The translations under genes and the position numbers were made by a program. The notes beneath the pieces were generated by a model. The model did no database searches. It was not told where the DNA came from and was given only the letters and a program-made list of their open reading frames with translations. DNA of 34,642 nt. Source: an uncultured Acholeplasmatales bacterium. Lineage in GTDB: Bacteria; Bacillota_I; Bacilli_A; Acholeplasmatales; UBA5453. This document shows, piece after piece, positions 8,717 through 34,642 of the stretch. Numbering within the stretch: position 1 is the first letter of the stretch; every line of letters starts with the position of its first letter. Location: assembly GCA_927433595.1 (NCBI GenBank), contig CAKMJY010000043.1, forward strand, positions 1 to 34,642. Direction: 5' to 3'.

Positions 8717-9232
8717 TTAAGGTTGTTCAATAACCGTGACAATTCGGTTCACAACTGTTTCATTCTGGTAAGCATCGGTTGCTTTATAAGTGATGATATA
8801 AGTGCCTACTTCGTTTAATACTGTACCAGTCGTTTCAACCGTAACAGCTAGATTCGACTGATCGGTTACAGTGACGGACTCATCTATCCATGTGTCACCT
8901 AATATAATGGTATCAATCCCTGCATTTAAAGTAACGGTAGGTGGTGTTTGATCTGTCACATGGATGACGCGCGTAACGGTTTTCGATAATTCACCGTAAG
9001 TCACTTGATAAGTGCGTTCATAGACGCCTACTTTGGCTGTATCTAGGTCATCAAATATTACGTCATAATCGAGTGTATTCGGGCCATAAGTGGCGATTGC
9101 ACCTAAGTCGATATAGGTATCTCCAACTTCAATGGTATCTACTTGAGGCACAAGTTCAATGTTTAAATTGGATAGCTTTGGTGTACATCCAGTTAAGAAA
9201 AAAAGGGTTAAAATGATTAGGATTTTTTTCAT
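8717..9232 (-). CDS. Lipoprotein with two Ig-like (DUF5011-type) domains
   Basis: Secreted, membrane-anchored protein of 171 residues. The signal peptide ends in the lipobox LTGC, with C16 the lipidated residue. Two similar beta-sandwich repeats follow: one around DTIEVGDTYIDLGAIATYG and one around DTIILGDTWIDESVTVTDQ, each ending in a GxYxxTYxxTD-like segment. These repeats are of the same type as the last two domains of the protease encoded just upstream. Its ATG overlaps the protease stop codon (ATGA), so the two are co-translated and probably work together. Function unknown; possible adhesin, or membrane partner or substrate for the protease. Confidence 0.8.
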   Translation of the reverse strand: MKKILIILTLFFLTGCTPKLSNLNIELVPQVDTIEVGDTYIDLGAIATYGPNTLDYDVIFDDLDTAKVGVYERTYQVTYGELSKTVTRVIHVTDQTPPTVTLNAGIDTIILGDTWIDESVTVTDQSNLAVTVETTGTVLNEVGTYIITYKATDAYQNETVVNRIVTVIEQP

Positions 9233-11682
9233 ACACTATCCTCCTTCTTGTACCAAATAACGAGTTGGTTTACAGCTGTATTTGCTAAGACTGTGACATA
9301 TCTAATACGCTCGTATGTTTGGTCCAAATTGGTAACCCTATACGTTATGACATATTCACCAGGTGTATTGGTGTCTACCTCACCGCTAATCGTGACCTCG
9401 CCATAATTTGCGGTTGCACCAGCTTCAATATAGTCTTTACCCGCAACAATCGTATCAATCCCTTTATTTAAGGTAATGATGACCGTTTCTGGTTTTGCTA
9501 ATATCGTGACGATTCTGACTCTTTCATCCACTAAAAGCGATTGGTAATAGACTTGATAGGTGATTGAATAAGTGCCAGGTGTTGATTCATCTAAATTAGA
9601 TGTGATGATGACCTCTATGCGTTCATCTGTGAAGTTTAATGCCATTTCTTGATAAGTCATACCAAGTGTTAAGGTATCTATACTTTTACCTAAGGTCACA
9701 TAAGTAGGATTATACACGGCTTCAAATATTGGGAATATGTCTAAATCACTTGTCACGTTATTAAACGTTTGATTCCAACCAATGAACATATAGTCAAATG
9801 GTGTCTCTGGTGATTTTGTCGGTTCTAACGTCATGTTAACAACACTGCCTGAAATAACGGACAAGCTACGGATGATTTGATCATTGCCATCATAGAAATT
9901 AACGGTATATGTGCCATCATCTAATTTGCCATAAAGCGTTAAGTCCGATGTGATGACATCCGGTATATACATATCTTGATAAGTTTGATCTAAATACCAA
10001 CCAACAAACGGATAAATACTGTTGTATGAGTATAGGATAACTTTGCTACCTTCAGTATAAAATTCTGTTTGCACAATTTCGCCTTTTATCACGTAATCAA
10101 CCTGATAAGGCTCACGTTCAAACTTCGCATATAAAACTGTATCGCTTGTTATTAAAGCCTGATTGTATGGTATTTGAAATGCTTGATCCATATAATAACC
10201 AATGAATGTATAATCGGTCTTAATTGGTATGAAGCTTAAACTCGAACCATAATCCAACAAGCCATTATATATGACGGATTGGCCATCATAAATGGTCATT
10301 TGATATTGGTTGATTTGATATCTTGCGTATAATGTTAAGTCAGATGTTACAGTATCAACGCCAACGTTAAATGGTACATCAAAGCTCGCATCTTTATACC
10401 AACCCAAGAATGTATAACCGGTTTTTTCAGGATCGTTGACTGAAAATGTCCCATCCATTATAACTTCAACCGGATCGATATAGGTGCCATCAAACGTTTC
10501 GAATGATACGGTGAATGTATCAAACGTCATGCTTTGATAGGCTTTAACTAGTCCGTAACCATAGTAATTATCTTTGCCAACGACGCCTAAGTCTTCTGCA
10601 TAGGTTTGTAGTAATTGATAGATATCATTTGCGGTTAAAGTGGGATTATAAGACCATATTAAGCCAGCTACACCAGCCAGATACGGGCTTGAAAAGCTGG
10701 TACCACTCACAGATACATACCCACCCGTCCTTGAGGTTGTTACAATCGCACTACCTGGTGTAACAAAATCAACGTACGTGTTATAGGTTGAAAAACTCGA
10801 AATCAATTTGGATTCATCGATAGAACCCACTGATATGACGCCATCATATGCAGCTGGGTAATTAATGGTTGAATCACCATCATTGCCACTCGATGCTACG
10901 ACTAAAACACCACTGTCTACTGCATGTTTAATAGCATCACGCATGATTGAATTAATAGAAGGTCCACCTAAGGATAAATTAATGATTTTGACACCTTGGT
11001 TGACGGCATAATAAATACCATCTGCCACATCTGCATCGTTAAATGAATTCGACTCATTATCTTCAGTTAATGGGTCATTGGGTTGGTTTGCTTTAATGAC
11101 TAAAATCGGTGCCTGCTGCAAAACACCTGCAATGCCAATGTTGTTGCCTTTATTTGCAGCTAAAACACCTGCAACATTTGTGCCATGTCCGTTATCATCT
11201 TCAACAGCAGCTAACCCAACGGTTTCTGTCCTGCTATTATAACTAAGTGGTGAAATCCTGCCTGTGAATTCAGGGTTATCTGTATCAATCCCTGTATCAA
11301 TGATTGCAACCATTAAATCACTGCTGCCTTCTATTAAATTCCAAGCAGTGCTAATTTCTAGCATTGGAATCGCATATTGATCATTTAAATAAGGGTCTGA
11401 ATTGACTGGAATTGGCTTTGCATCAACATAAAGCGATGTAGGTTGGTAAAAACCCATGGTTTCTAGTTGTTTAAGTATCTTAATATCATCTACTTCAAAA
11501 GTAGTGATACCAGAATCTTTGTATTCAATGATATTTGCATCGTATGTCTTTGCAATCGATACTGCTTTTTCATAAGTTTCAAATCTCGATACTAATTGAT
11601 AAGTGCTTGGTGTCTTAGTATTAGAATTAAAGACAAAAAAGGCAATCATAAAGATGGCTATCGTATTCATTAATTTTTTCAT
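9229..11682 (-). CDS. Secreted subtilisin-like serine protease (S8) with B-repeats and Ig-like domains
   Basis: Exported protease of 817 residues. Order: signal/membrane segment (residues 6-20), short propeptide-like region (~27-85), S8 catalytic domain (~95-390) with D129 (AIIDTGID), H166 (NGHGTNVAG), N267 (ASSGNDG) and S329 (SGTSFSSP). Then come four InlB/Listeria-Bacteroides-type B-repeats (each with a YTFLGWYKD-like core), then two DUF5011-like Ig domains. There is no LPXTG anchor. I chose ATG 11682, preceded by AAGGTGGGAG and giving a normal signal peptide. The frame is open up to 11775, but that would place the start inside the bmpA terminator. Co-translated with the lipoprotein gene. 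Probably degrades or processes proteins at the cell surface. Confidence 0.9.
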   Translation of the reverse strand: MKKLMNTIAIFMIAFFVFNSNTKTPSTYQLVSRFETYEKAVSIAKTYDANIIEYKDSGITTFEVDDIKILKQLETMGFYQPTSLYVDAKPIPVNSDPYLNDQYAIPMLEISTAWNLIEGSSDLMVAIIDTGIDTDNPEFTGRISPLSYNSRTETVGLAAVEDDNGHGTNVAGVLAANKGNNIGIAGVLQQAPILVIKANQPNDPLTEDNESNSFNDADVADGIYYAVNQGVKIINLSLGGPSINSIMRDAIKHAVDSGVLVVASSGNDGDSTINYPAAYDGVISVGSIDESKLISSFSTYNTYVDFVTPGSAIVTTSRTGGYVSVSGTSFSSPYLAGVAGLIWSYNPTLTANDIYQLLQTYAEDLGVVGKDNYYGYGLVKAYQSMTFDTFTVSFETFDGTYIDPVEVIMDGTFSVNDPEKTGYTFLGWYKDASFDVPFNVGVDTVTSDLTLYARYQINQYQMTIYDGQSVIYNGLLDYGSSLSFIPIKTDYTFIGYYMDQAFQIPYNQALITSDTVLYAKFEREPYQVDYVIKGEIVQTEFYTEGSKVILYSYNSIYPFVGWYLDQTYQDMYIPDVITSDLTLYGKLDDGTYTVNFYDGNDQIIRSLSVISGSVVNMTLEPTKSPETPFDYMFIGWNQTFNNVTSDLDIFPIFEAVYNPTYVTLGKSIDTLTLGMTYQEMALNFTDERIEVIITSNLDESTPGTYSITYQVYYQSLLVDERVRIVTILAKPETVIITLNKGIDTIVAGKDYIEAGATANYGEVTISGEVDTNTPGEYVITYRVTNLDQTYERIRYVTVLANTAVNQLVIWYKKEDSV

Positions 11683-11763
11683 AAGCTCCCACCTTATCTT
11701 TAGGCTATTACCTTTATATATATAATATACGCCAATTGACTCGTTTTTATTGGTAAAATGCAG

Positions 11764-11796
11764 AAAAAAAAGCACTTCTTTTAAAAAGTGCTTTTT
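11764..11796 (-). terminator. Terminator after bmpA
   Basis: Perfect 11-bp stem AAAAAGCACTT/AAGTGCTTTTT (11767-11777 with 11786-11796) and a U run on the minus strand. It separates bmpA transcription from the protease gene. Confidence 0.85.
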
Positions 11797-17486: not shown

Positions 17487-17517
17487 AAAAAAGGACACCC
17501 ATTTTGTGGGTATCCTT
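17487..17517 (-). terminator. Terminator of the giant CvpA-repeat gene
   Basis: 11-bp stem (17491-17501 with 17507-17517, one G-T pair), 5-base loop, U run on the minus strand. Confidence 0.85.
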
Positions 17518-17532
17518 CTTGATTATTGATTA

Positions 17533-20500
17533 CTATATGCCCCAAACACTATCGGATAAATCTCTTAATAATACGATGTAATCTGTATTAGAATCGATGG
17601 TGCCTAGTTGAGGTTCAACTGGGTCAGGGGTAACTGCTAATACCAATTCAGGTACGATTGGACCTAATACGGTTGATAACTTCATGGTATTGAAGAATCC
17701 ACCTAATAAGTCTGCATCTGTGTAATCACCAGGCATAGAGCCTACTGGGTTTAAACTACCTACTGGTTGGATGTCGCCTAAGCCCTTAATCACGGCTACA
17801 AGTCGATCAACTTCACCAGTTGTTGGTGTATTCCATGCGGCTACCTTAGTGGCATATGGTGTATCAACCACTTCACCAAGTGGTGTGGTTAATGTTGTAC
17901 CAAATGCGGATTCGATACCTGACTTCATGAAGCTTGAAATCACTTCAATGTCTAGCAATCTAGATTGTGCAACTAACTTCAAGATGACACCTAGTTCGTC
18001 TGCTTCAGGATCAGTCATATTTGTAATATCGATTGAGCTTAAGCTGAAGCCACCATTTAATTCAACTAATAGATCGACTAAGACATCAATTTCTGTTGTC
18101 CATTCAGCCTTAGTTAAGGTTGGTTGTGGTGTTACTTTCCATGAAGATGCACTACTTAATGCTGCTGAATCCATGATTTCACCTAAGATTGGTCTTAGGA
18201 TTGCTGAATTATTAATCTTATTGAGGGCTGCCTTCAAGTCTGCACTGTTCGTACCATTGATGGTCGATAAGTCAGTGGATTGGAAGTAATCTGCGGCGTT
18301 AATTGCTTTAAGAACAAGCACTAATTCGCCTTCATTTACACCATCACCACGCCAGAAGTCTGGGTCGTTTGAAGAGTCAATTGGACTAATATTTAATCCA
18401 CCCTGTGTAATTAAGATTTGGTTAAACATCTTATCAAGTGAGAATTCAAATACTCTGCTAGATAGTAAGATGTCTGCAAGTGTTTCTGCCTTCGTATCAT
18501 CATTGATTGCTGTTACCATGCTTGCATAATTAAAGTTGTTGTAATCAATGCCAAGGGCATCCATATCTCTAATGGCTTTAAGCAATGGTAATAAGTCACC
18601 TTGAGGATAAGTTGGGTCTTCGTCTACTTTCCACTTGTAAGGTTCTGCATTTGGTAAAGTAGGGTTGATGAATGCGGATAATGTACCCGTTTCAATGATT
18701 GGTTTCACTTCTTCGATTAAGGTTGCTTCGATGACTTTAGATAATACTAAGGTATCTAGGTCTAAGCTTAATACGGTGTCAATGTCAATCACTGCAACAT
18801 TAATATCGCCGCCTGGGACTAATAATTTGAGGCCAACCAGTAAGTTTTCTAATTCGCCGTTAGTTGAATCAGTTGAGTGCCATGTTAAGCCTGTAGGCAC
18901 GACTAATAAGCCTGGATTAGAACCGGTAGGTGATACCATATCGGTAAATACATTTTCGAATACCAATGAAATGACTTCTGATAATGCAATCGTATGAATG
19001 TCTGCATTGCTTAAACCTAAGACTAAGTTAGCATCCATCGTACCAGAACCAAGTTTAGAAATACCTCTTAATAACTTGATTAATTCACCATCAGCGACGC
19101 CATCACCTTGCCAGAAGGTTGTATTCGCTTGGTTATCTAATTGAATATTCACGCCTGCATTATCATTTAGGATATAGGTAAACATCTTATCTAATGAATT
19201 ATGTAGGATTCTGGATTCAAGCATTGCATCGTTTACCACTTGAATGTTTGCTTCTACTGCTAATACAGTTGAGAAGGCTGTGTAATCAAATGTGGTTAAT
19301 GAAATGCCTATACCATCTAAGGTTTGAATCGATTTAAGGAGTGGTTTGAGATCGCCATCAGGATGATTTAGATCAGTACCTTGATACCAAACATATGACA
19401 CTGCACCTGGTAAGGTTGGTTCGATATAATTGGTCAAACTACCCGTTTCAATCATTGGTTGAACCGTCAATACGGCTGTATGTTCAATGACTTTAGATGC
19501 TAATAATAAATCGATATCTGCTGCGATAATCGCATCAAAGCCGAAATCAGCTGTTGCGATGTCTCCACCAGGGACTAATACTTTAAGTGCCAACAATAGG
19601 TTTTCTAACTCGCCATTTTCAGTTGAAGTAGAATGCCATGTTAAATTAGTTGGTACATAAATATCGCCATCTAGGTCACCACCAGGGGCAGCCATATCGG
19701 TTAATACCGCTTCAAATACTTGTGCAATGACTCTAGAAAGTGCCACTGTATGGATTTGAGCTTCTGATAAACTTAAGAATGCATTGGCATCAAAGTTGCT
19801 TGCACCAACGATTGAGATGGCTCTTAATAAGTGTTTCAATTGGCCGTCTGATACGCCATCACCTTGCCAGAAGGTTGGTTCTGCATCATGATCAAGTGTT
19901 ACATTGACACCTGCAGAGCCGTTTAATACGGTTGTAAATAATTTATCTAGTGAGTTGTGTAGTATTCTCGATGACAACAATAAATCGTTGACATTGGTAA
20001 TACTTGGTTCATCTGCTAATGCAGTTGTCATGGCTTGATAGTCTAGTGCTTGAATGTCTAAGCCCATATCGTCTAAGCCTTGAACTGCTGCAAGTAATGG
20101 TTTGAGATCGCCATCTGGGTGATTTTGATCAATACCGATATACCATACATAATCCACATTACCAGGTAATTTAGGTTCAATGTATGTAGATAGGCTACCG
20201 GTTTCAATCATTGGTTGAACCGTTAACACGGCTGTATGTTCAATGACTTTAGAAGCTAGTAATACGTCGACATCTGCTGCAATGATCGCATCAAATCCGA
20301 AGTCTGCTGTTGCGATATCGCCACCAGGTACTAGTACTTTGAGTGCGGTTAACATGTTTTCTAATTCACCGGTTTCAGTGGATGTTGAATACCATGTTAA
20401 TCCAGTTGGTACAAAGATTTGACCATCTAAATCGCCACCGGTAGATGACATGTCGATGATGACATTTTCAAATACTAATGCGATGACTCTAGATAATGCG

Positions 20501-23500
20501 ACTGTGTGGATATCTGCTTCTGATAACGTTAAGAACGCATTGGCATCAAAGCTGGTTGCATCCACTAAAGACACAGCTCTTAATAGCTTGATTAATTCAC
20601 CATCTGCAACACCATCGCCTTGCCAGAAGGTTGGTTCGCTTGTGTTATTTAACGTGATATTTAAGCCTGCTGAATCATTTAAGACGGTTGTAAATAGTTT
20701 GTCTAATGAGTTCGACAGAATTCTTGATGATAATAGTAAGTCGTTTAAGTCTGTAATCGCCGATTCACTAGATAGTGCAGCGGACAACGCTTGATAATCT
20801 AGGGCTTGAATATCAATGCCTAAATCATTTAAGCCTTGAACGGCTTCTAGTAATGGTTTTAAATCACCATCGGTATTATTTTCATCCACTTCCATGTACC
20901 ATGTATAATCGACGTCACCAGGTAATTTAGGTTCTATGTAAGTCGATAAATCACCAGTTTCGATCATTGGTCTAATGGTTTCAACCAATGTCATTTCAAC
21001 GGTCTTAGAACGTAAAATAACATCTAAGTCTACCGTCATAATGGTATTTAGATCCACAGAGAATGTGGCTAAATCTGTATTTGGAGGGACAACTGCTTTA
21101 AGGGCTAATAATAAGTATTCAAGTTCACCAGTTTCGGTTGAAGTGGAGTACCAAGTTAAACCTGTTGGTACACTTAATAAACCTTCTAAATCGCCACCGG
21201 TTGCAACCATATCCATGAACACGGCTTCAAACGTATTTGAAATCACCTTCGATAATGCAATCGTATGGATATCTGCTTCTGATAAAGCGATTAGTGCACT
21301 TGGGTCACTGCCTGCGCTTGATAAAATCTTAGCGGCTTTAAGGAGTGAATTGATTTCTAGTTCTGTCCATTCTTCTACCGTTTCAGGTAAAACAATTTCG
21401 AAATCACCAAGGTTCGCTTGTGTAGATACCATCTCAAAAATGGCATTTAAATTATATCTTATGACATATGAATCTGATAAGTAACCTGCTAATGCATCTA
21501 TCGATTCATTGGTTAGTAAACTTAAATCCCCACCAAGTATATCTGCAGATAAGATTTCTCTTGCTGCTTTTAATAGGGCTGTTAATTCTGTTTGACCAGA
21601 TTCGCTGCCCCAATCAATGGTTGGCGGAATGACTAATGTCACACCAAGATTAAGTTGCGTTAATAATGAACCAATGACGTCATTCATCTTCGTACTAATT
21701 AAGTTTGAACCACTAATTTTAGCAACTATCGCATCGATATTGGCGTCACTTAATACGGTTGTATAATCTGGGTTTTCTTCTTCTAATAACGTTAAAATGC
21801 CCGTTGATACGACGACCTTAGCCAATAAGACTAAGTTAGTAATCTCAGTTGCATTAAAGTTTGCATTGATATCTGCTTCTGTGATTAAGCCTTGATAATC
21901 AGCTGGTAGGTTTGCAATCATTTGATCGTAGATTAAACCTGCAACGACTGCTGTGTTATCATTCACCATGTTAAACGCAAATAATGCATCAAACACGTCT
22001 GAAATGGCTTGGTCCGTGATTGCCCCAAATACTGCTGGGTCTTGTAAGGTTTCAAAGTCATCCATTGAATCAAAGCCTAAGCCTTGGATGGCTAAATATA
22101 AATCCGCAATCGCTTCAAAGTCACCTTGTAGGTCTGCACCTTCAGGTAAGGTTAAATCGGCTTTAGTCACGCCTTGTTCTAGAAGCATCGCTTCAACACC
22201 TGGCATACCTAATGCGTAATTCAGTCCAATTGGTAAGCCGTATTGAAGCATTTCTAATTGACCTAAGTTAGCAAAAATGTCAGTGACGACTTCACCATCA
22301 AACATAAAGTAGTTTATATCTGATAATGGGACATCACTTTGTGCTTGAATTAATGTTAATGCATCGGCAAAAACATCACCTAAGACGCCTAAGTCTTGCA
22401 TATAATCGATGGCTTTAAGGTCTTCTAAGACAAACAAGTCTTCATATCCTTCAAGCATCTCGTCAAATTCACCACTATTTAATAAATATTCTAAGCCCAC
22501 CGGAATGATGACTTCAATCAAATCAAGGTCTGAAACCAAACCCATGATGGCAGTGACATCTTCTGGTGATAATTTATAGATGATGGTGTCATCAAATGTG
22601 GTAGACCCATCATTTGCTTCAACCAATAAGTTCACAGCTTCTAATGCTTTTTCAAGTTCTGCTCTAAACTGAATACTTGTATCTACATTATCGGTTTTGA
22701 CTGTGACTTCAAAAATCGAGTCAAACACGTATTCATCTAAAGCAACGTCGTCTATTTTGACATAACCCGCGATCATCCCGACATAGGTTGAGCGGTATTC
22801 AGATAAGAATTGTTGTACTTCTCCAATCAATTCATCCTGTTCAGCTTGTGGTTGCTGCACTTCAACTAGAACCATCTCATCATTGATCAACATCAATTGA
22901 TAAGTTGGTGTAGCATCCGCTTGTTGTGTCATCGCTAAATCAAGAGCGCCTGAAAAAGCGACTAATCCAGCAATTGGAATAGACATTAATAGGATTGAAA
23001 ATGCCCCTCTTAATGTTCCAACACCTGTACCAAGTAATCTGGACAAGCCTGATTTTTTCTTTTTCTTGCCTTTAGGTTTGAATATCAACCAAAGTATCCA
23101 TCCAACCACTTTGAATACAGTCGCATTTAGTACTAGCACCGCAATCAAGAATACCAATTGTAGTACCATTTGCGTCATACCATATACTAAAGCAAGTGCA
23201 TCCGAGCCATCGACTAACACATTAGCCAATGCTGGTTCCATGGATATTAATAAGGCTGGAATGGTTTCTTTTAAATTTGTAATTGGGACCTCAGCTTGAT
23301 AGTATTGTTCTACCATACTGATATCTTGGGTCATGAGGAATGCAGACACAACTGGCATCATAAAATAAGCCAGTACGAGCACACCTACTGTCCAAATCAA
23401 AAAGAAGGTTGATTTATAAAATCCTTGTACGAATCCCCAAAACGCTGCTAAGCCAATAATACCCATTGCGGCATAGTTCAGATATTGCAGCATTTCTTCT

Positions 23501-23514
23501 GCTTGAAAAGCCAT
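17533..23514 (-). CDS. Giant repeat protein with CvpA-like membrane domain (1993 residues)
   Basis: Residues 1-190 match the CvpA layout: hydrophobic segments at about 13-33, 36-60, 109-145 and 162-190, with GFVQGFYKS after the first and LSRLLGTGVGTLRGAF at the last. The loop at 147-154 is nearly all lysine, so it should face the cytoplasm and leave the C-terminus outside. Residues 200-1993 are acidic, contain no cysteine that I can see, and consist from about residue 650 of repeated ~84-residue helical modules. Each module opens with W or F, then G(E/D)LxxLLxAL, and closes with LxxSRVIxxxLxxxF or similar. Three module types (a, b, c) form a 252-residue unit repeated about four times. ATG 23514 has AGAGGTGA four bases upstream. 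Monocistronic. The function is unknown; perhaps an extracellular stalk or scaffold. Confidence 0.85.
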   Translation of the reverse strand: MAFQAEEMLQYLNYAAMGIIGLAAFWGFVQGFYKSTFFLIWTVGVLVLAYFMMPVVSAFLMTQDISMVEQYYQAEVPITNLKETIPALLISMEPALANVLVDGSDALALVYGMTQMVLQLVFLIAVLVLNATVFKVVGWILWLIFKPKGKKKKKSGLSRLLGTGVGTLRGAFSILLMSIPIAGLVAFSGALDLAMTQQADATPTYQLMLINDEMVLVEVQQPQAEQDELIGEVQQFLSEYRSTYVGMIAGYVKIDDVALDEYVFDSIFEVTVKTDNVDTSIQFRAELEKALEAVNLLVEANDGSTTFDDTIIYKLSPEDVTAIMGLVSDLDLIEVIIPVGLEYLLNSGEFDEMLEGYEDLFVLEDLKAIDYMQDLGVLGDVFADALTLIQAQSDVPLSDINYFMFDGEVVTDIFANLGQLEMLQYGLPIGLNYALGMPGVEAMLLEQGVTKADLTLPEGADLQGDFEAIADLYLAIQGLGFDSMDDFETLQDPAVFGAITDQAISDVFDALFAFNMVNDNTAVVAGLIYDQMIANLPADYQGLITEADINANFNATEITNLVLLAKVVVSTGILTLLEEENPDYTTVLSDANIDAIVAKISGSNLISTKMNDVIGSLLTQLNLGVTLVIPPTIDWGSESGQTELTALLKAAREILSADILGGDLSLLTNESIDALAGYLSDSYVIRYNLNAIFEMVSTQANLGDFEIVLPETVEEWTELEINSLLKAAKILSSAGSDPSALIALSEADIHTIALSKVISNTFEAVFMDMVATGGDLEGLLSVPTGLTWYSTSTETGELEYLLLALKAVVPPNTDLATFSVDLNTIMTVDLDVILRSKTVEMTLVETIRPMIETGDLSTYIEPKLPGDVDYTWYMEVDENNTDGDLKPLLEAVQGLNDLGIDIQALDYQALSAALSSESAITDLNDLLLSSRILSNSLDKLFTTVLNDSAGLNITLNNTSEPTFWQGDGVADGELIKLLRAVSLVDATSFDANAFLTLSEADIHTVALSRVIALVFENVIIDMSSTGGDLDGQIFVPTGLTWYSTSTETGELENMLTALKVLVPGGDIATADFGFDAIIAADVDVLLASKVIEHTAVLTVQPMIETGSLSTYIEPKLPGNVDYVWYIGIDQNHPDGDLKPLLAAVQGLDDMGLDIQALDYQAMTTALADEPSITNVNDLLLSSRILHNSLDKLFTTVLNGSAGVNVTLDHDAEPTFWQGDGVSDGQLKHLLRAISIVGASNFDANAFLSLSEAQIHTVALSRVIAQVFEAVLTDMAAPGGDLDGDIYVPTNLTWHSTSTENGELENLLLALKVLVPGGDIATADFGFDAIIAADIDLLLASKVIEHTAVLTVQPMIETGSLTNYIEPTLPGAVSYVWYQGTDLNHPDGDLKPLLKSIQTLDGIGISLTTFDYTAFSTVLAVEANIQVVNDAMLESRILHNSLDKMFTYILNDNAGVNIQLDNQANTTFWQGDGVADGELIKLLRGISKLGSGTMDANLVLGLSNADIHTIALSEVISLVFENVFTDMVSPTGSNPGLLVVPTGLTWHSTDSTNGELENLLVGLKLLVPGGDINVAVIDIDTVLSLDLDTLVLSKVIEATLIEEVKPIIETGTLSAFINPTLPNAEPYKWKVDEDPTYPQGDLLPLLKAIRDMDALGIDYNNFNYASMVTAINDDTKAETLADILLSSRVFEFSLDKMFNQILITQGGLNISPIDSSNDPDFWRGDGVNEGELVLVLKAINAADYFQSTDLSTINGTNSADLKAALNKINNSAILRPILGEIMDSAALSSASSWKVTPQPTLTKAEWTTEIDVLVDLLVELNGGFSLSSIDITNMTDPEADELGVILKLVAQSRLLDIEVISSFMKSGIESAFGTTLTTPLGEVVDTPYATKVAAWNTPTTGEVDRLVAVIKGLGDIQPVGSLNPVGSMPGDYTDADLLGGFFNTMKLSTVLGPIVPELVLAVTPDPVEPQLGTIDSNTDYIVLLRDLSDSVWGI
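18347..20618 (-). repeat. 756-bp tandem coding repeats inside the giant gene
   Basis: The same landmark (ccttgccagaagg or variant) recurs at 18347, 19106, 19862 and 20618, spaced 759, 756 and 756 bp. The intervening DNA is similar along its whole length, strongest between the two central units. This equals 252-253 codons, three 84-residue modules, in frame. Confidence 0.9.
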
Positions 23515-23545
23515 AAAATCACCTCTTCATAATTGTTTCATAAAA

Positions 23546-23656: not shown

Positions 23657-23684
23657 AAAAATAAAACCTGCGCTTGGCAGGTTT
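23657..23684 (-). terminator. Terminator of the alpha-glucosidase gene
   Basis: Perfect 8-bp stem AAACCTGC/GCAGGTTT (23664-23671 with 23677-23684) and a U-rich run on the minus strand. The stop codon is in the stem. Confidence 0.85.
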
Positions 23685-28764: not shown

Positions 28765-28840
28765 GCATCCGTAGCTCAGTCGGTAGAGCAACTGACTCTT
28801 AATCAGTGGGTCCACGGTTCGAGCCCGTGCGGGTGTACCA
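28765..28840 (+). tRNA. tRNA-Lys (anticodon CTT)
   Basis: 76 bases including an encoded CCA. Acceptor GCATCCG pairs with CGGGTGT (two G-T pairs); D arm AGCTCAGTCGGTAGAGC; anticodon arm ACTGA/TCAGT with CTT at 28798-28800; T arm CACGG-TTCGAGC-CCGTG. Stands alone. Its 3' end borders the accessory region and could be an attachment site. Confidence 0.96.
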
Positions 28841-28951: not shown

Positions 28952-29209
28952 ATGCATAAGATCAAAGAGTTTCGAATTAAAAAGGGATTATCTGGTAGTG
29001 AGTTGGCTAGACTCGTAGGTGTATCGAGACAATCGATTAACAATTACGAATCATTTTTAAGAGAGCCTAACATCGAAATCTTAATTAGAATTGCTGTTGC
29101 TTTAGATTGTACCGTGGATGATATCCTCGATTTTCAATCCATTCAACATCAAGTTCACAAAGAATTATTTGCCAAGATAAATTCAGAAAAAAAAGAGCCT
29201 AATAATTAA
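28952..29209 (+). CDS. XRE/Cro-family transcriptional regulator
   Basis: 85-residue DNA-binding protein. The helix-turn-helix is at about residues 14-34 (ELARLVGVSRQSINNYE), followed by the PNIEILIRIAVALDCTVDDIL helices common to short XRE repressors; the last 20 residues are charged. ATG 28952 has AAGGAGG four bases upstream. The promoter is embedded in a large palindrome, which fits autorepression. It shares a terminator with the convergent HEPN gene and could be the control gene of the accessory region. Confidence 0.92.
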   Translation: MHKIKEFRIKKGLSGSELARLVGVSRQSINNYESFLREPNIEILIRIAVALDCTVDDILDFQSIQHQVHKELFAKINSEKKEPNN

Positions 29210-29222
29210 GGCTCTTTTTTTT
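29187..29222. terminator. Bidirectional terminator between XRE and HEPN genes
   Basis: Stem AAAAAAGAGCCT/AGGCTCTTTTTT with an 8-base loop (29201-29208) holding parts of both stop codons; A and T runs on both sides. Confidence 0.85.
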
Positions 29223-30510
29223 CACTCAAAATATTAACTATTGATTTTTTATTTAAATCAAACCAGCATACAATAGATGCAAAGCTGAAAATACGTCTTA
29301 ATAAGAAATCTTTCAAATTTTCAGTTTTTAAATCTGGATTATCATATGCATCTTCTATTGAAATGAAATCTGCCTTTTTTGAAGATTTAAAGAGGTAAAC
29401 AAAAGGATGACTATATTCATCAAAACTTAAATCACTTGAATTGAATACTCCGTTATCTCTATATAATTTCTCGAGATCTTTTAAAATCTTATTGATACTT
29501 TTTGTGTTACAGTGCACAATTGATGATCTCAAAGAATAGATTTTCTTAAGTTCATCAGATATATTACTTTTTTCTTTTTCAGTTAGCTTTATACTGTTTA
29601 TGACTAATGGATGTTTATCCTTAAGAAAGTATGTATAAGGTGTTTTATTGAGTTGGTCATATAACTCAAGCAGTAAGGCTACTTTATATGAAAACTGTTT
29701 CGTAATTGTGTTTTCAATATGATACTTTGTGTCATCTGGACTTGAAGTCAATACACCTTCAATCAATATCATTAAATTCATGATTTTCATATCAAAATTT
29801 GATATAGCAAAATAGTTATAAACTAAACCGGATTTAAACAATACGGAGTCAAAATTACTATGATCATTAATAATAGATATAAATATATCTCTAAAATTAT
29901 GAACAATTGAATCAAGCTTTGTTATGTATAGTTCTTTTGTATGATAAAGGACTGAGAAAAAATGATGGTTTGTAGTTAGCCAATAACCATTTGAACTAGA
30001 CAAAGTATCTTTAAACAAAATCTTACTATGAAAAAAATTATATATTGTGCTTTTTGAATTTATAAACCCGTTACTAAGACCAATTAATGCAAATACTGAA
30101 TTAAGTTTATCAACAAATACTCTTTCAATTTCTGTTTCTATTAATTCTTCAGTAATCTCATTTCCTTCATCATCAAATGAAATCTCAATCGATTTAAAAC
30201 TAGAACAGAATAAATCTAACATTTGTTGATTATATTCAAATATAACCCATTTTTCAGCTATTTTCTTTAACAAATCATTCTTTGTCTTTGATTTAATATC
30301 AATCCCTTTAATATCTGTTTGATCATAAAGGTTCAAATAAAATGGATGATGTATATCTTTATTATCAAATGTCCAATATGAATATGCATGTTTAACAAAA
30401 CTTAAAACAAATTCTATCTCTTTATCGTTATTAGGATTTCGAAATATACAATTATCCAATAAAACAATTGGTTCTTCTAAATGTTCATAAAAGTTTGTAA
30501 TCAGAAACAT
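29206..30510 (-). CDS. ApeA-like HEPN-domain protein, candidate RNase
   Basis: 434 residues, lysine-, asparagine- and isoleucine-rich, and more AT-rich than its neighbours. The N-terminal half (1-180) is not recognised. In the C-terminal half, the sequence around MNLMILIEGVL (244-254), then ALLLEL, then KKIYSLRSSIVHC (322-334) has the pattern of Apea-like HEPN domains; R328 and H333 form the RxxxxH ribonuclease motif. Known ApeA proteins are single-gene antiphage abortive-infection factors, but this assignment rests on motif reading only. ATG 30510 has AAGGA upstream and a TGTTACAAT extended -10 at 30532-30540. Monocistronic beside the recombinase gene. Confidence 0.65.
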   Translation of the reverse strand: MFLITNFYEHLEEPIVLLDNCIFRNPNNDKEIEFVLSFVKHAYSYWTFDNKDIHHPFYLNLYDQTDIKGIDIKSKTKNDLLKKIAEKWVIFEYNQQMLDLFCSSFKSIEISFDDEGNEITEELIETEIERVFVDKLNSVFALIGLSNGFINSKSTIYNFFHSKILFKDTLSSSNGYWLTTNHHFFSVLYHTKELYITKLDSIVHNFRDIFISIINDHSNFDSVLFKSGLVYNYFAISNFDMKIMNLMILIEGVLTSSPDDTKYHIENTITKQFSYKVALLLELYDQLNKTPYTYFLKDKHPLVINSIKLTEKEKSNISDELKKIYSLRSSIVHCNTKSINKILKDLEKLYRDNGVFNSSDLSFDEYSHPFVYLFKSSKKADFISIEDAYDNPDLKTENLKDFLLRRIFSFASIVCWFDLNKKSIVNILSEKKEP

Positions 30511-30531
30511 GTAATCACTTCCTTATAAACA

Positions 30532-30540
30532 ATTGTAACA
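30532..30540 (-). promoter_or_regulatory. Extended -10 promoter of the HEPN gene
   Basis: On the minus strand TGTTACAAT; no convincing -35. Confidence 0.5.
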
Positions 30541-30565
30541 TTTTTTAAACTAAAGTACATATATT

Positions 30566-31477
30566 CTAAGAATTGTATTTATCTTGAATTGTAGAATCAC
30601 ACATGCTTGTCAAGCGTTTAGAAGCTATATTATATGCAGTATGTGCCTGTTCAGATGTATAATCAACATATATCTGTGTAGTTTTAATATCGCTATGTCC
30701 CAATATTGTTTGAAGCATTTTTAAGTTGTCACCTGTAACCTTTGCTAAATCAGTTGCCATAGTTTTTCGATACTGTCTAGCATTTAATTGATTCAATCCG
30801 AGTTGTTTAGCCAACTTCCTGTGAAACTGTCTAACATCATCACGTGTAAGCCTTCTATTTTGTATATGATTCCAGAACAAATAAGGACTGAATGTATTTT
30901 TCTCAAGAAGTTCTAATATAAAGATATCGTGATACTCCGTAAAAAAAACATAGCGTTCTTTCTTTGATTTAGTTTTTTCTAGAAGTATTGTTCTATGTTT
31001 TATGTTTATGTTTCTAATCCTGATATTTAGAAGTTCACCTATTCTACAACCTGTTGCATATAATAAGTTCAAAGCCGCCTTATATACGTGACTATTCTTA
31101 TTTTTTTGCATTCTGTTTACCACTCTGAATATATCAATAAGATCATCATTGTGAATCGGTTTCACTGGTGATGTATCATCCCTAAGCTTCTTAGTTAATA
31201 AGAAAGGATGTTGTTCATAACCGTTATGTCTTAATGCCGCCTTCAAAAATGCGATATATTTGTTGATGCTTGCATTCTTTGAGTTTGTGTGAGTTAAGTA
31301 ATATTGAACTATCTCCCCAAATCTATCAAACTTTAAATCATCAACAGATTTGATTCCTAATGCTTCAGTGCATTTAATAATTGTTCGAATGTGTCCAAGT
31401 TCACCTCGACGAGTATCAGAAACAACAATACCCAATTTTGAATCATAATATTTTTGCAACAAATCATTAATGTTCAT
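30566..31477 (-). CDS. Tyrosine recombinase/phage-type integrase
   Basis: 303-residue site-specific recombinase. Residues 1-95 form the helical SAM-like core-binding domain; the catalytic domain follows. R145 (ATGCRIGELL), K170 or K172/173 in the beta-hairpin (KTKSKKER), R237 (ARQYRKTMAT), H261 (ILGHSDIKTT) and nucleophile Y270 (IYVDY) are visible. The box II His is replaced by Arg (R234 in ARQYR). ATG 31477 is chosen for its AAGGGAG Shine-Dalgarno; the longer frame to 31699 would overlap the end of the upstream gene. Nearest tRNA is tRNA-Lys, 1.7 kb away. Likely integrates the surrounding element, or drives local DNA inversion. Confidence 0.92.
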   Translation of the reverse strand: MNINDLLQKYYDSKLGIVVSDTRRGELGHIRTIIKCTEALGIKSVDDLKFDRFGEIVQYYLTHTNSKNASINKYIAFLKAALRHNGYEQHPFLLTKKLRDDTSPVKPIHNDDLIDIFRVVNRMQKNKNSHVYKAALNLLYATGCRIGELLNIRIRNINIKHRTILLEKTKSKKERYVFFTEYHDIFILELLEKNTFSPYLFWNHIQNRRLTRDDVRQFHRKLAKQLGLNQLNARQYRKTMATDLAKVTGDNLKMLQTILGHSDIKTTQIYVDYTSEQAHTAYNIASKRLTSMCDSTIQDKYNS

Positions 31478-31604
31478 TTTGCAATCTCCCTTTTTCCTTG
31501 TAAAATGTCCATGGTATTGAAATTCAGTAATGCCGCACAAATAAACTAGACGTAATTTTGAAGGAAATTTTGCCAACAAAATGAAAGAATTGCGAAATAT
31601 ATTA

Positions 31605-31632
31605 AAAGCCCCAAATTTCAATTCGGGACTTT
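31605..31632. terminator. Possible terminator after the 581-residue surface protein
   Basis: AAAG-CCC pairs with GGG-A-CTTT, one bulge, followed by TTAATATATTT on the minus strand and CATTTTTT on the plus strand. Imperfect. Confidence 0.4.
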
Positions 31633-31638
31633 CATTTT

Positions 31639-33384
31639 TTATATATTTATGTAAATGATATAGATGATTGAACCAACCAAGGATAAGACCCAGAACCATG
31701 GCCGTGAAATCAATGCTACAAAGACTCTTGCAACGCCTTCTAATAAAATGCCAAGCACACTTACAACTACCTTTAAAATAGGCATTAATGGAGCAAATAC
31801 AATTGTAAGAATAACTGCAAGGATAATGAAAATACCTACTGCCAGTATCACCGCTTGTTCTGGTGTTTTAATCATATCCAAAACCATTTTAATAAAATCA
31901 TATCCTGGTTCACTAGGTTCTAATGTTTTATCTATTACATCTTTTAAGATAATATCATCGAAGGTTAACAAATTGACTTGGCCATTCTGAACAAACACTA
32001 TTTCAGAGAATTGAAATGTATCTTCAACCAGATAAACATTTCTTGCACCCCATTCATCGTATTGACCCCAATTCAATCTATAAAGCTTGTTTGAATCAGT
32101 ATCAATGATTACATTTGCATCATAAGCTTCGTTCCATGCACCAGTGATTTTCTCAACCAATTCCGACGTCGGATTACTTACAACATTTATCTGATCAAGT
32201 GAACGTGTCCATAGTGGGTTATCGAAATTAAGTAGTTTTGAGCCTATATCGATGTATGTAAAATATGAATATATGCTGTAGTATAACAACTTCTTTTCCC
32301 AAGTCGGTGAAAACTTATTTTCATCACCTGCCCTTAAAACGACGGTGTCAGTTCTTACGTCACTCTTACCACCTATATACCATTCAAACCTGTAACTAAT
32401 CTTAGCTGTGACAGAAATGAGTGAGTCATGGATGGTATTAGGCATGTACATGTAAGTGTAAATGTTTCTATTTGAATCTTTTGCGTGATATGCAAAGACA
32501 TCCACCTTATTGACTGATCTAATCTCATTCGTCGTTAGATTCCAGGTCACTGTTTGTGTCCATGGACGTGCTTGAATTGGTAAAGATGAAAGATACACTG
32601 GTTCTTTTTCCTCATACGTCATCGTAATGAACTTATTGTTATTGTCAGTCCAGTAATAAGCATATTGAACGTTCTCAAACGCTGTAATGTCATCCACAAG
32701 CATTCTAGCTAGTTTATACGTATGAACCATCTGAATCGTTACATCCAGGTATGAACCATCGATGGCTAAGCTTACAACACCATAATTACCTTCTTTATAA
32801 GGTGAGCCAGTGCTTTCAGGTAAATCAGAAATCGCTATATCCCGGTAAACGTTTGATTTTTCCCAGTAGATTCTATATGTCTTTCCATCAAACAAGTACA
32901 TGACATGCTCCTGGGTTGTCAGTGAAGTACCTTCATATTCTTGGATTGTTGAAATTTGAATACCTTCTGAAGTACCTTGAAAGTTTAAATAGTTATGCGA
33001 TGCATCTCTTGATGAATATTGAACAACATAATTCCCTTGTTCATCCAAGGTTTCAACAACAAAGATACTATAATTCGTTACATCTGGATTCCAAATGTTT
33101 CTATCAAAATAGATATCTTTAGATCCATAGAACTTAGTTTCATGTGCTGAAGAAGTATCGTATGAAACCATAAATGAACCCGTACTTGTGTACCTAGGTA
33201 AACTGAAGTGAATGTATGCACGTTCATTGCCAACGATTTCGTGATAAATGTCTGCACCGTTGTTATCACCTTCAGGTTCTGAATTGATAATGCCTGTTCC
33301 GTGAGCTTGTACTGTGTAGCCAAACCCTAAAAGAAAAGGCACTACCAAAATCAGTGCTATTAGACTTTTTTTGAATAGTGCCAT
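31639..33384 (-). CDS. Secreted/membrane protein of unknown function with C-terminal membrane helices
   Basis: 581 residues. Signal peptide 1-27 (ending VQA, then HGTG); a long beta-rich, tyrosine/asparagine-rich ectodomain without cysteines (about 28-505); then hydrophobic segments at about 511-531, 533-552 and 557-580 with a very short tail. I recognise no family. The build (exported head, C-terminal membrane bundle) is like viral or conjugative surface proteins. ATG 33384 lies eight bases after the stop of the Ig-like gene upstream, with AGGT inside the stop region, so both are one operon. The recombinase gene follows in the same direction. Confidence 0.8.
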   Translation of the reverse strand: MALFKKSLIALILVVPFLLGFGYTVQAHGTGIINSEPEGDNNGADIYHEIVGNERAYIHFSLPRYTSTGSFMVSYDTSSAHETKFYGSKDIYFDRNIWNPDVTNYSIFVVETLDEQGNYVVQYSSRDASHNYLNFQGTSEGIQISTIQEYEGTSLTTQEHVMYLFDGKTYRIYWEKSNVYRDIAISDLPESTGSPYKEGNYGVVSLAIDGSYLDVTIQMVHTYKLARMLVDDITAFENVQYAYYWTDNNNKFITMTYEEKEPVYLSSLPIQARPWTQTVTWNLTTNEIRSVNKVDVFAYHAKDSNRNIYTYMYMPNTIHDSLISVTAKISYRFEWYIGGKSDVRTDTVVLRAGDENKFSPTWEKKLLYYSIYSYFTYIDIGSKLLNFDNPLWTRSLDQINVVSNPTSELVEKITGAWNEAYDANVIIDTDSNKLYRLNWGQYDEWGARNVYLVEDTFQFSEIVFVQNGQVNLLTFDDIILKDVIDKTLEPSEPGYDFIKMVLDMIKTPEQAVILAVGIFIILAVILTIVFAPLMPILKVVVSVLGILLEGVARVFVALISRPWFWVLSLVGSIIYIIYINI

Positions 33385-33392
33385 TGATTTAC

Positions 33393-34642
33393 CTACTTTC
33401 TATATTTTGAATACTTAGATTTTCTTTGATGCTCTGGCTTGTAATTATTTGATTGAATTAAAACAAATGTTATTGAACCAATTACAAGAAGTGAGCCAAC
33501 TAAGATTAATCCTGATTGAACTGGATTAGCTTTCACATAGTCAACTACATGAGCCCATAAATCTCTAGAATCTTCAATCACACCATCGATTGGAGCAGTT
33601 TCTAATACTTCAACAGCGAATGATTGGATTTCTGTTTCACCTGTCGATGCCATAAACTTCATCGATACTGCATAGAGTCCTGGAATGCCTGAATTACCTT
33701 CATATTCATTCACAAGCATCATATATTGTGTGTTAGCTGGCAATGTCAATTGACCAGTTCTTACTAAAATATCAACGAAATCTTCATTCGATAATGTGAC
33801 AATATCTTCTACTCTTATGAACTGTCCTGGAGTTACCATAAATACTGGCGGAATGTTATCAGTTGCATGAACTGTTACTGTGAAGAATGTGAAGTTACCT
33901 GCATCATCTTGAACAGAGAACTCAATGTCATATGAACCAACCTTGTTACCGTTCCCGGTGTATCCATCTTCTAGAACTTCTAAAGTATCAGTTACATTGC
34001 CACTAATTATGTCAGTTGCAGAAATATCAGCAATGATATCTTGAATGGTTAAAGTTGATGTTACAGGTTTATAAATGGTTTCATTGTAAGTTACGATTGG
34101 TGCTACATTGTCATATACTGTGATTGGGAAAACATATTCACCTTTGTTACCTGAAGTGTCAGTCATTTCAAATGTAACAGCGTATTCACCAGGGATATTT
34201 TTGTTTGCAGTATATGTGTTTGATTTAATTGCTACATTTACGTTCGCACTTTCATCGTAATTATCCCATACTAGATTTTGAATAGTATTTTTTAAGCCTT
34301 CAACATTAAATGTCTCTGTATAACCAACCATGGCAGAATCCTCTTCTAAACCAACTGAAGGTGCAGAAATATCTTTAACCAATACAAAGACTTTTAATTC
34401 AGAGGTATTGCCTGATGAGTCAGTAACACTATAGTTAATTTCATATTGCCCCACATATGCAATTACATGGTCATATGTAGATGATGTTAACTCGATTAAG
34501 TGTGTAATGTCACCATCCACATCGTCGAAAGCACTAATGTATGATATCATTGCTGATATTTCTGCAACTGACATAATTAGTGGCAATGTAACTGATACTT
34601 TAGAAGTTCTAGAAGATGGATACACCGGGAACGGTAACAAGG
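33393..34642 (-). CDS. Ig-like multidomain surface protein with C-terminal membrane anchor, 5' end missing
   Basis: Runs off the right edge. The readable part has at least three DUF5011/HYR-like Ig domains (markers AFDDVDGDIT, SVTDSSGNTSE, SVQDDAGNFTF, each with a GxYxxxFxxxD-type strand), then a single membrane helix (about VQSGLILVGSLLVIGSITFVL) and a basic tail ending KYSKYRK. This is a surface protein anchored with its tail inside. The first ~33 codons (34543-34642) are the reverse complement of 33941-34040 and do not read as an Ig domain, so the true upstream sequence is probably different. Same operon as the 581-residue protein. Confidence 0.75.
   Translation of the reverse strand, partial: LLPFPVYPSSRTSKVSVTLPLIMSVAEISAMISYISAFDDVDGDITHLIELTSSTYDHVIAYVGQYEINYSVTDSSGNTSELKVFVLVKDISAPSVGLEEDSAMVGYTETFNVEGLKNTIQNLVWDNYDESANVNVAIKSNTYTANKNIPGEYAVTFEMTDTSGNKGEYVFPITVYDNVAPIVTYNETIYKPVTSTLTIQDIIADISATDIISGNVTDTLEVLEDGYTGNGNKVGSYDIEFSVQDDAGNFTFFTVTVHATDNIPPVFMVTPGQFIRVEDIVTLSNEDFVDILVRTGQLTLPANTQYMMLVNEYEGNSGIPGLYAVSMKFMASTGETEIQSFAVEVLETAPIDGVIEDSRDLWAHVVDYVKANPVQSGLILVGSLLVIGSITFVLIQSNNYKPEHQRKSKYSKYRK
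33941..34040. repeat. Left arm of a 100-bp perfect inverted repeat
   Basis: Identical, in reverse complement, to 34543-34642. Here the sequence reads sensibly as part of an Ig domain (ISATDIISGNVTD on the minus strand). Confidence 0.97.
34543..34642. repeat. Right arm of the 100-bp inverted repeat, at the window end
   Basis: Exact reverse complement of 33941-34040, ending with the window. The inner boundary falls in the 10-bp palindrome ATGATATCAT (34541-34550). Either an inversion arm or a fold-back assembly artefact. Confidence 0.97.

Follow-up and report, generated by a model that had tools for sequence, protein, structure and literature searches.

We found that the window, that is, the whole analysed stretch of 34,642 nucleotides, carries at 17533-23514 (minus strand) a gene for a giant repeat protein of 1993 amino acids, which we consider reasonably probable to be a membrane-anchored, sortase-independent extracellular stalk; its role in contact is a guess. 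The architecture of this giant is well supported, its topology is predicted from charge only, and an adhesion or coat role is guesswork. The family to which it belongs is large, widespread and apparently undescribed, and our literature search turned up no paper dealing with CvpA-repeat proteins of Acholeplasma or related bacteria.

The reading frame is intact from ATG to stop under translation table 11, and a sequence resembling a ribosome-binding site, AGAGGTGAT (23518-23526, minus strand), is located just 5' of the ATG. Under code 4 (TGA as Trp) the frame would extend upstream; this reading was rejected because the table-11 start is preceded by the ribosome-binding site and lines up with the positions at which close relatives begin. 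Pattern scans detected a terminator-like hairpin of 14 pairs 3' of the gene (17488-17520, minus strand) and a second one on its upstream side (23664-23684). As such hairpins flank the gene on both sides, it is probably transcribed alone. A mobile origin was also considered and rejected, since the protein has no match among plasmid or phage records. The translation is strongly acidic (281 Asp and Glu against 83 Lys and Arg) and contains no cysteine in its 1993 residues, as the initial annotation had noticed. Its C-terminal end (residues 1842-1993; 17536-17991, minus strand) holds one further module start (GEVDRLVAVIKGL), has neither an LPXTG motif nor a hydrophobic tail in the translation, and reads ...LRDLSDSVWGI at its close. 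This end is kept in the relative L035 and not in the other close relatives.

The N-terminus forms a putative membrane anchor (residues 5-200; 22915-23502, minus strand) with four helices at residues 5-30, 32-62, 105-145 and 156-200 in the AlphaFold2 model. Against the Pfam family Colicin_V (PF02674), this region aligns to profile positions 2-126 of 144 with 21-22 bits (E 1e-4 to 3e-4), which is under the curated cut-off of 29.3 bits. Colicin_V was the commonest Pfam match in the close relatives (12 of 13, best E 1.8e-5), and none of ten N-termini scanned from other families attains its cut-off. Given these sub-cut-off scores, we term the anchor CvpA-like and refrain from counting the giant among CvpA members. 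The CvpA-like N-terminus described in the initial annotation thus stands as regards the four membrane helices and the best-matching family, whereas outright CvpA membership is not secure. The giant is the sole Colicin_V-like locus found in the Paracholeplasma-like genome of the window (1.59 Mb, 85.9% complete).

Among the 13 relatives compared, the loop between the third and fourth membrane helices is the only strongly basic one in every case (6-11 Lys or Arg and 0-3 Asp or Glu in 13/13). In the window this loop (residues 144-164; 23023-23085, minus strand) contains KPKGKKKKKSGLSR and is assigned to the cytoplasmic side by its charge. The N-terminus, the loop between the second and third helices and the region after the fourth helix are acidic in nearly all of the 13. 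From the basic loop and these acidic segments we infer, by the positive-inside rule, that both termini and the module array are extracytoplasmic. A precedent is the mycobacterial protease MarP (Rv3671c), in which four N-terminal membrane helices are followed by a C-terminal domain on the extracytoplasmic side (PMC4992679). The giant shares with it the four N-terminal helices and, going by the charge rule in the 13 relatives, would likewise have its C-terminal part outside; MarP carries a trypsin-like protease domain, whereas the giant has helical modules only and no Pfam peptidase family. The charge rule and the MarP analogy thus speak for the extracellular array proposed in the initial annotation. 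At a threshold of 2.0, the giant of the window has no hydrophobic segment beyond residue 320; the giants from other families likewise have these hydrophobic helices early in the sequence, and very few of them have another past that residue. Following the anchor is a small membrane-proximal alpha/beta element (residues 203-282; 22669-22908, minus strand) with AlphaFold2 strands at 205-218 and 269-282, which did not match the module alignment in profile-profile comparison.

The remainder of the protein is built from tandem modules. Comparison of residues 581-1830 with themselves gave peaks at offsets of 252 (z=17) and 504 (z=12), and segment scores reached 143, compared to 45 for the best shuffled sequence. 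An 84-residue module HMM detected 16 copies at residues 556-1841 with a mean spacing of 83.4 and a rhythm of about 78/85/90, summing to about 252, which bears out the super-repeat of 3 x 84 residues that had been reported earlier. The 16 modules cover residues 546-1841 (17992-21879, minus strand; HMM hits E 3e-2 to 3e-16). In the controls (shuffled, reversed and unrelated sequence), the seed HMM had no match with E below 1e-3, and the iterated HMM a single one (E 9e-4), in unrelated ORFs totalling 46,105 residues. At least three divergent modules precede them, at residues 283-545 (21880-22668, minus strand), as judged from the AlphaFold2 helix pattern and from profile-profile matches (E 4e-5, 4e-5 and 3e-4). 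With the 16 HMM copies, these upstream modules and the module start near the C-terminus, the whole array is estimated at about 19-20 modules; the earlier count of about sixteen holds for the HMM-detected copies but falls short of this total.

Three modules together form the 252-residue super-repeat, of which about four copies occupy residues 720-1728 (18331-21357, minus strand; segments at offsets 252, 504 and 756). Identity among the copies is 45-72% at the protein level and 60-74% at the DNA level, and from this divergence we take them to be old duplications and not an assembly artefact of identical copies. Each module is an all-helical unit of about 84 residues, with helix 1 (GELxxLLxAL), a short helix, helix 2, helix 3 starting from S-x-V/I-I and an irregular linker leading to the next W. 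A glutamate (88%) and a serine (98%) are nearly invariant over 165 copies from the whole family. The helix with (S)(R/K)VI/IL had been described as closing the module; the S-x-V-I motif instead begins the third helix.

AlphaFold2 modelling, which had been named as a check on the modules, was run for two constructs. The model of residues 1-1124 had a pLDDT of 80 and a pTM of 0.50, with which a rod, a superhelix or a flexible chain would all be compatible as overall shape. As MAFFT alignments of all module pairs and quadruples were out of register, four in-phase modules (residues 540-871, 332 aa) were taken for the second model, which was all-helical with a pLDDT of 82 and a pTM of 0.80. Neither model had a Foldseek match in the PDB at E<=0.001. 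The best PDB value for the four-module model was 2.1, and the long model showed a weak resemblance to alpha-solenoids (best E 0.024). Nor did Foldseek find a structural match to the modules in the viral fold library BFVD at the same threshold. Pfam gave no domain common to the giants tested, its scattered single matches being ascribed to chance, and no adhesion, lectin, SLH or other surface domain in any of them. Matches of Pfam bpX6 and NCBIfam cbiO to the modules were single, short, below cut-off and not common to the relatives, and were likewise discarded as chance. The claim of a new repeat family is supported as far as Pfam, the PDB and BFVD reach.

Known systems resemble the giant only in part. 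CvpA proteins share its four-helix membrane domain and the similarity over profile positions 2-126; they are short (about 160-250 aa), whereas the giant is about 10 times longer and scores below the Pfam cut-off. Among the class matches listed, above-cut-off CvpA occurs in ORFs of 131-594 aa only, and many carrier genomes hold such a short ORF beside the giant. Six genomes of family f12 (G166, G177, G199, G208, G224 and G232) have above-cut-off CvpA in ORFs of about 400-590 aa, where it is probably fused to another segment. Alpha-solenoids (TPR, HEAT, ARM, PPR) are similarly made of tandem helical modules; the giant, however, has no Pfam repeat match to them and no fold match at E<=0.001, and differs from them in its unit of about 84 residues with a long irregular linker and nearly invariant Glu and Ser. 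Giant1-5 of Apilactobacillus kunkeei are extracellular, elongated and lineage-divergent proteins of 3,000-8,000 aa (PMC12863079), of which Giant1-4 have beta-solenoid N-terminal domains, in contrast to the all-helical array and multi-span anchor described here. Sortase-anchored proteins carry LPXTG and a hydrophobic tail in genomes with a sortase; the giant of the window has neither feature, and no sortase was found in its genome (85.9% complete). S-layer proteins have an SLH or other wall-binding domain and form a two-dimensional lattice; the giant has no SLH match in Pfam.

Related genomes were searched for the combination of CvpA-type anchor and repeats that the initial annotation had suggested to look for, and it proved to be common. 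A profile built on residues 1-600 detected relatives with the same anchor in 87 of the 160 order genomes (E<=1e-6) and in 142 of the 395 class genomes sampled (E<=1e-3), the latter count including a few weak matches. Nearly all matches listed for this profile are ORFs of 0.8 to 6 kaa, and the relatives range from 943 to over 6000 aa. By name, the pattern scan identified Paracholeplasma vituli, from a cultured and wall-less genus, as well as Acholeplasmataceae MAGs. The module HMM matched giants of families f3, f4, f12, f16, f19 and f24, with 22 matches in one protein (L108). Its matches were scarce in giants of f2, f11 and f21, and it found none in two f9 giants (L110 and L122), both cut short where their stretch ends. 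A four-module profile matched 38 of 392 genomes of the phylum, all of them in the same class. Most carriers have one or two giants per genome; G007 has two in tandem, and an f4-type copy is additionally present in G005 and G008. About a third of the class genomes sampled carry the family, at roughly 3-18 kb a locus, and for its modules we found neither a Pfam entry nor a structural relative in the PDB.

Within the genus, L031-L033 and L035 have the giant in much the same gene order as the window. Identity to L031, L032 and L033 is 47-78% per 100 residues up to about residue 1000 and 8-36% thereafter; for L032 the drop comes only after about 1200. The distal arrays of these three consist of different modules. 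A conserved base with a fast-rebuilt tip would be expected of a surface-exposed protein, and is not proof of exposure. A conserved operon partner was sought and rejected, as none is shared across families and gene neighbours give no consistent functional hint; dnaE lies near the giant only in several f4 loci. In family f24 (L109 and L121), long (2246-2941 aa) and short (875-955 aa) giant-type genes stand in tandem, and in L109 a divergently oriented gene for a trypsin-like protease is located just before the long one.

We compared the distribution of the giant with that of the wall gene mraY, found in 165 of the 395 class genomes. Both were present in 40 genomes, the giant only in 102, mraY only in 125 and neither in 128. 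The giant is commoner without mraY, yet wall-less genomes are not alone in having it. Given that mraY is present in 40 of the 142 carriers and that 128 genomes contain neither gene, we rejected wall-lessness, to which the initial annotation had tied the design, as the common factor. The genome of the window, 85.9% complete, yielded neither mraY nor a sortase. Sortase (PF04203) was detected in 2 of 80 carriers compared to 65 of 80 mraY-positive non-carriers, and 38 of the 40 carriers with mraY were without it. The comparison was chosen after the mraY result and is a post hoc lead, not a planned test. Fisher's test gives 4e-27, which, the genomes being related, is no test of independent events; the contrast is confounded by phylogeny, follows family lines and may reflect one or two historical events. 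The two sortase-positive carriers (G264 and G405, family f14) have weak anchor matches (E 2.5e-4 and 1.6e-6) that may be ordinary CvpA.

We propose that the CvpA-like four-helix domain would span the cytoplasmic membrane and have its two ends on the outer side, and that from its last helix the small alpha/beta element and then about 20 helical modules would run outwards. The first ~1000 residues form the conserved base. The distal part would be rebuilt by lineage-specific duplication of blocks of one to three modules, through which length and surface could change quickly. With such a multi-span anchor, a cell would need no wall, LPXTG signal or sortase to expose a very long protein on its surface. 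The Cys-poor, acidic composition, the wide range of lengths and the scarcity of sortase among carriers are in line with this reading. The likeliest work of the distal array would be contact, in the form of adhesion, aggregation or a protective coat, as guessed from other giant surface proteins.

Three other readings were weighed against this stalk. The modules might be a membrane-proximal scaffold or co-receptor that gathers partners around a transporter or signalling core formed by the CvpA-like part, which we regard as unlikely. CvpA belongs to a transporter clan in Pfam (PMC6705877), and a conserved base of ~1000 residues exceeds what the root of a mere stalk would need. The giant of family f19 is, moreover, directly followed by a c-di-AMP receptor gene in three loci (L108:14795-15118, L118:15650-15973 and L119:14998-15339; 20 bases or less past the giant or overlapping it; CdAMP_rec E 5e-35 for the L108 neighbour). 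However, the receptor adjoins the giant only in f19, the neighbours differ in other families, and the distal array is almost wholly different between species of one genus.

Less probable still is the strongest version of the initial annotation, a coat or surface layer replacing the missing wall. The lack of detected mraY and sortase in the genome of the window and the long, acidic, repetitive array would fit it, but it has to contend with the mraY-positive carriers, with the genomes having neither, with the usual one or two copies per genome, and with the failure of our scans to find a lattice-forming or SLH domain. A surface layer goes beyond the sequence, which reaches at furthest to a stalk or scaffold. 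Equally improbable is a reversed topology, with the array as a cytoplasmic scaffold. Protein-binding helical repeats are commonly cytoplasmic in other systems; against this reading stand the sole strongly basic loop, the almost always acidic N-terminus and post-anchor region, and the avoidance of cysteine by the array in the closest families.

The extracellular stalk, if true, would show how cells without sortase, and often without a wall, build long surface proteins, and the family offers a new helical repeat. More tentatively, and with rather less than even confidence, the giants might represent a new wall- and sortase-independent mode of surface display that arose in mycoplasma-related Bacilli, in which a CvpA-derived multi-span anchor and an expandable array of new helical modules took over from sortase-anchored proteins as sortases and, partly, the wall were lost.

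Elsewhere in the window, a small ORF encoding two Ig-like domains of the bacterial-surface type adjoins a subtilase that has Listeria-Bacteroides repeats and the same Ig-like domain (8717-11775). A tRNA-Lys (28765-28840) is followed at 28952-31699 by an XRE-like regulator, a 434-aa ORF and a phage-type integrase (Phage_integrase E 4e-29), genes that may constitute a small element inserted at this tRNA. At the window edge (31639-34640) are a 581-aa ORF without any Pfam match and an Ig-like surface protein that is truncated by the window end and has a hydrophobic stretch close to its C-terminus.
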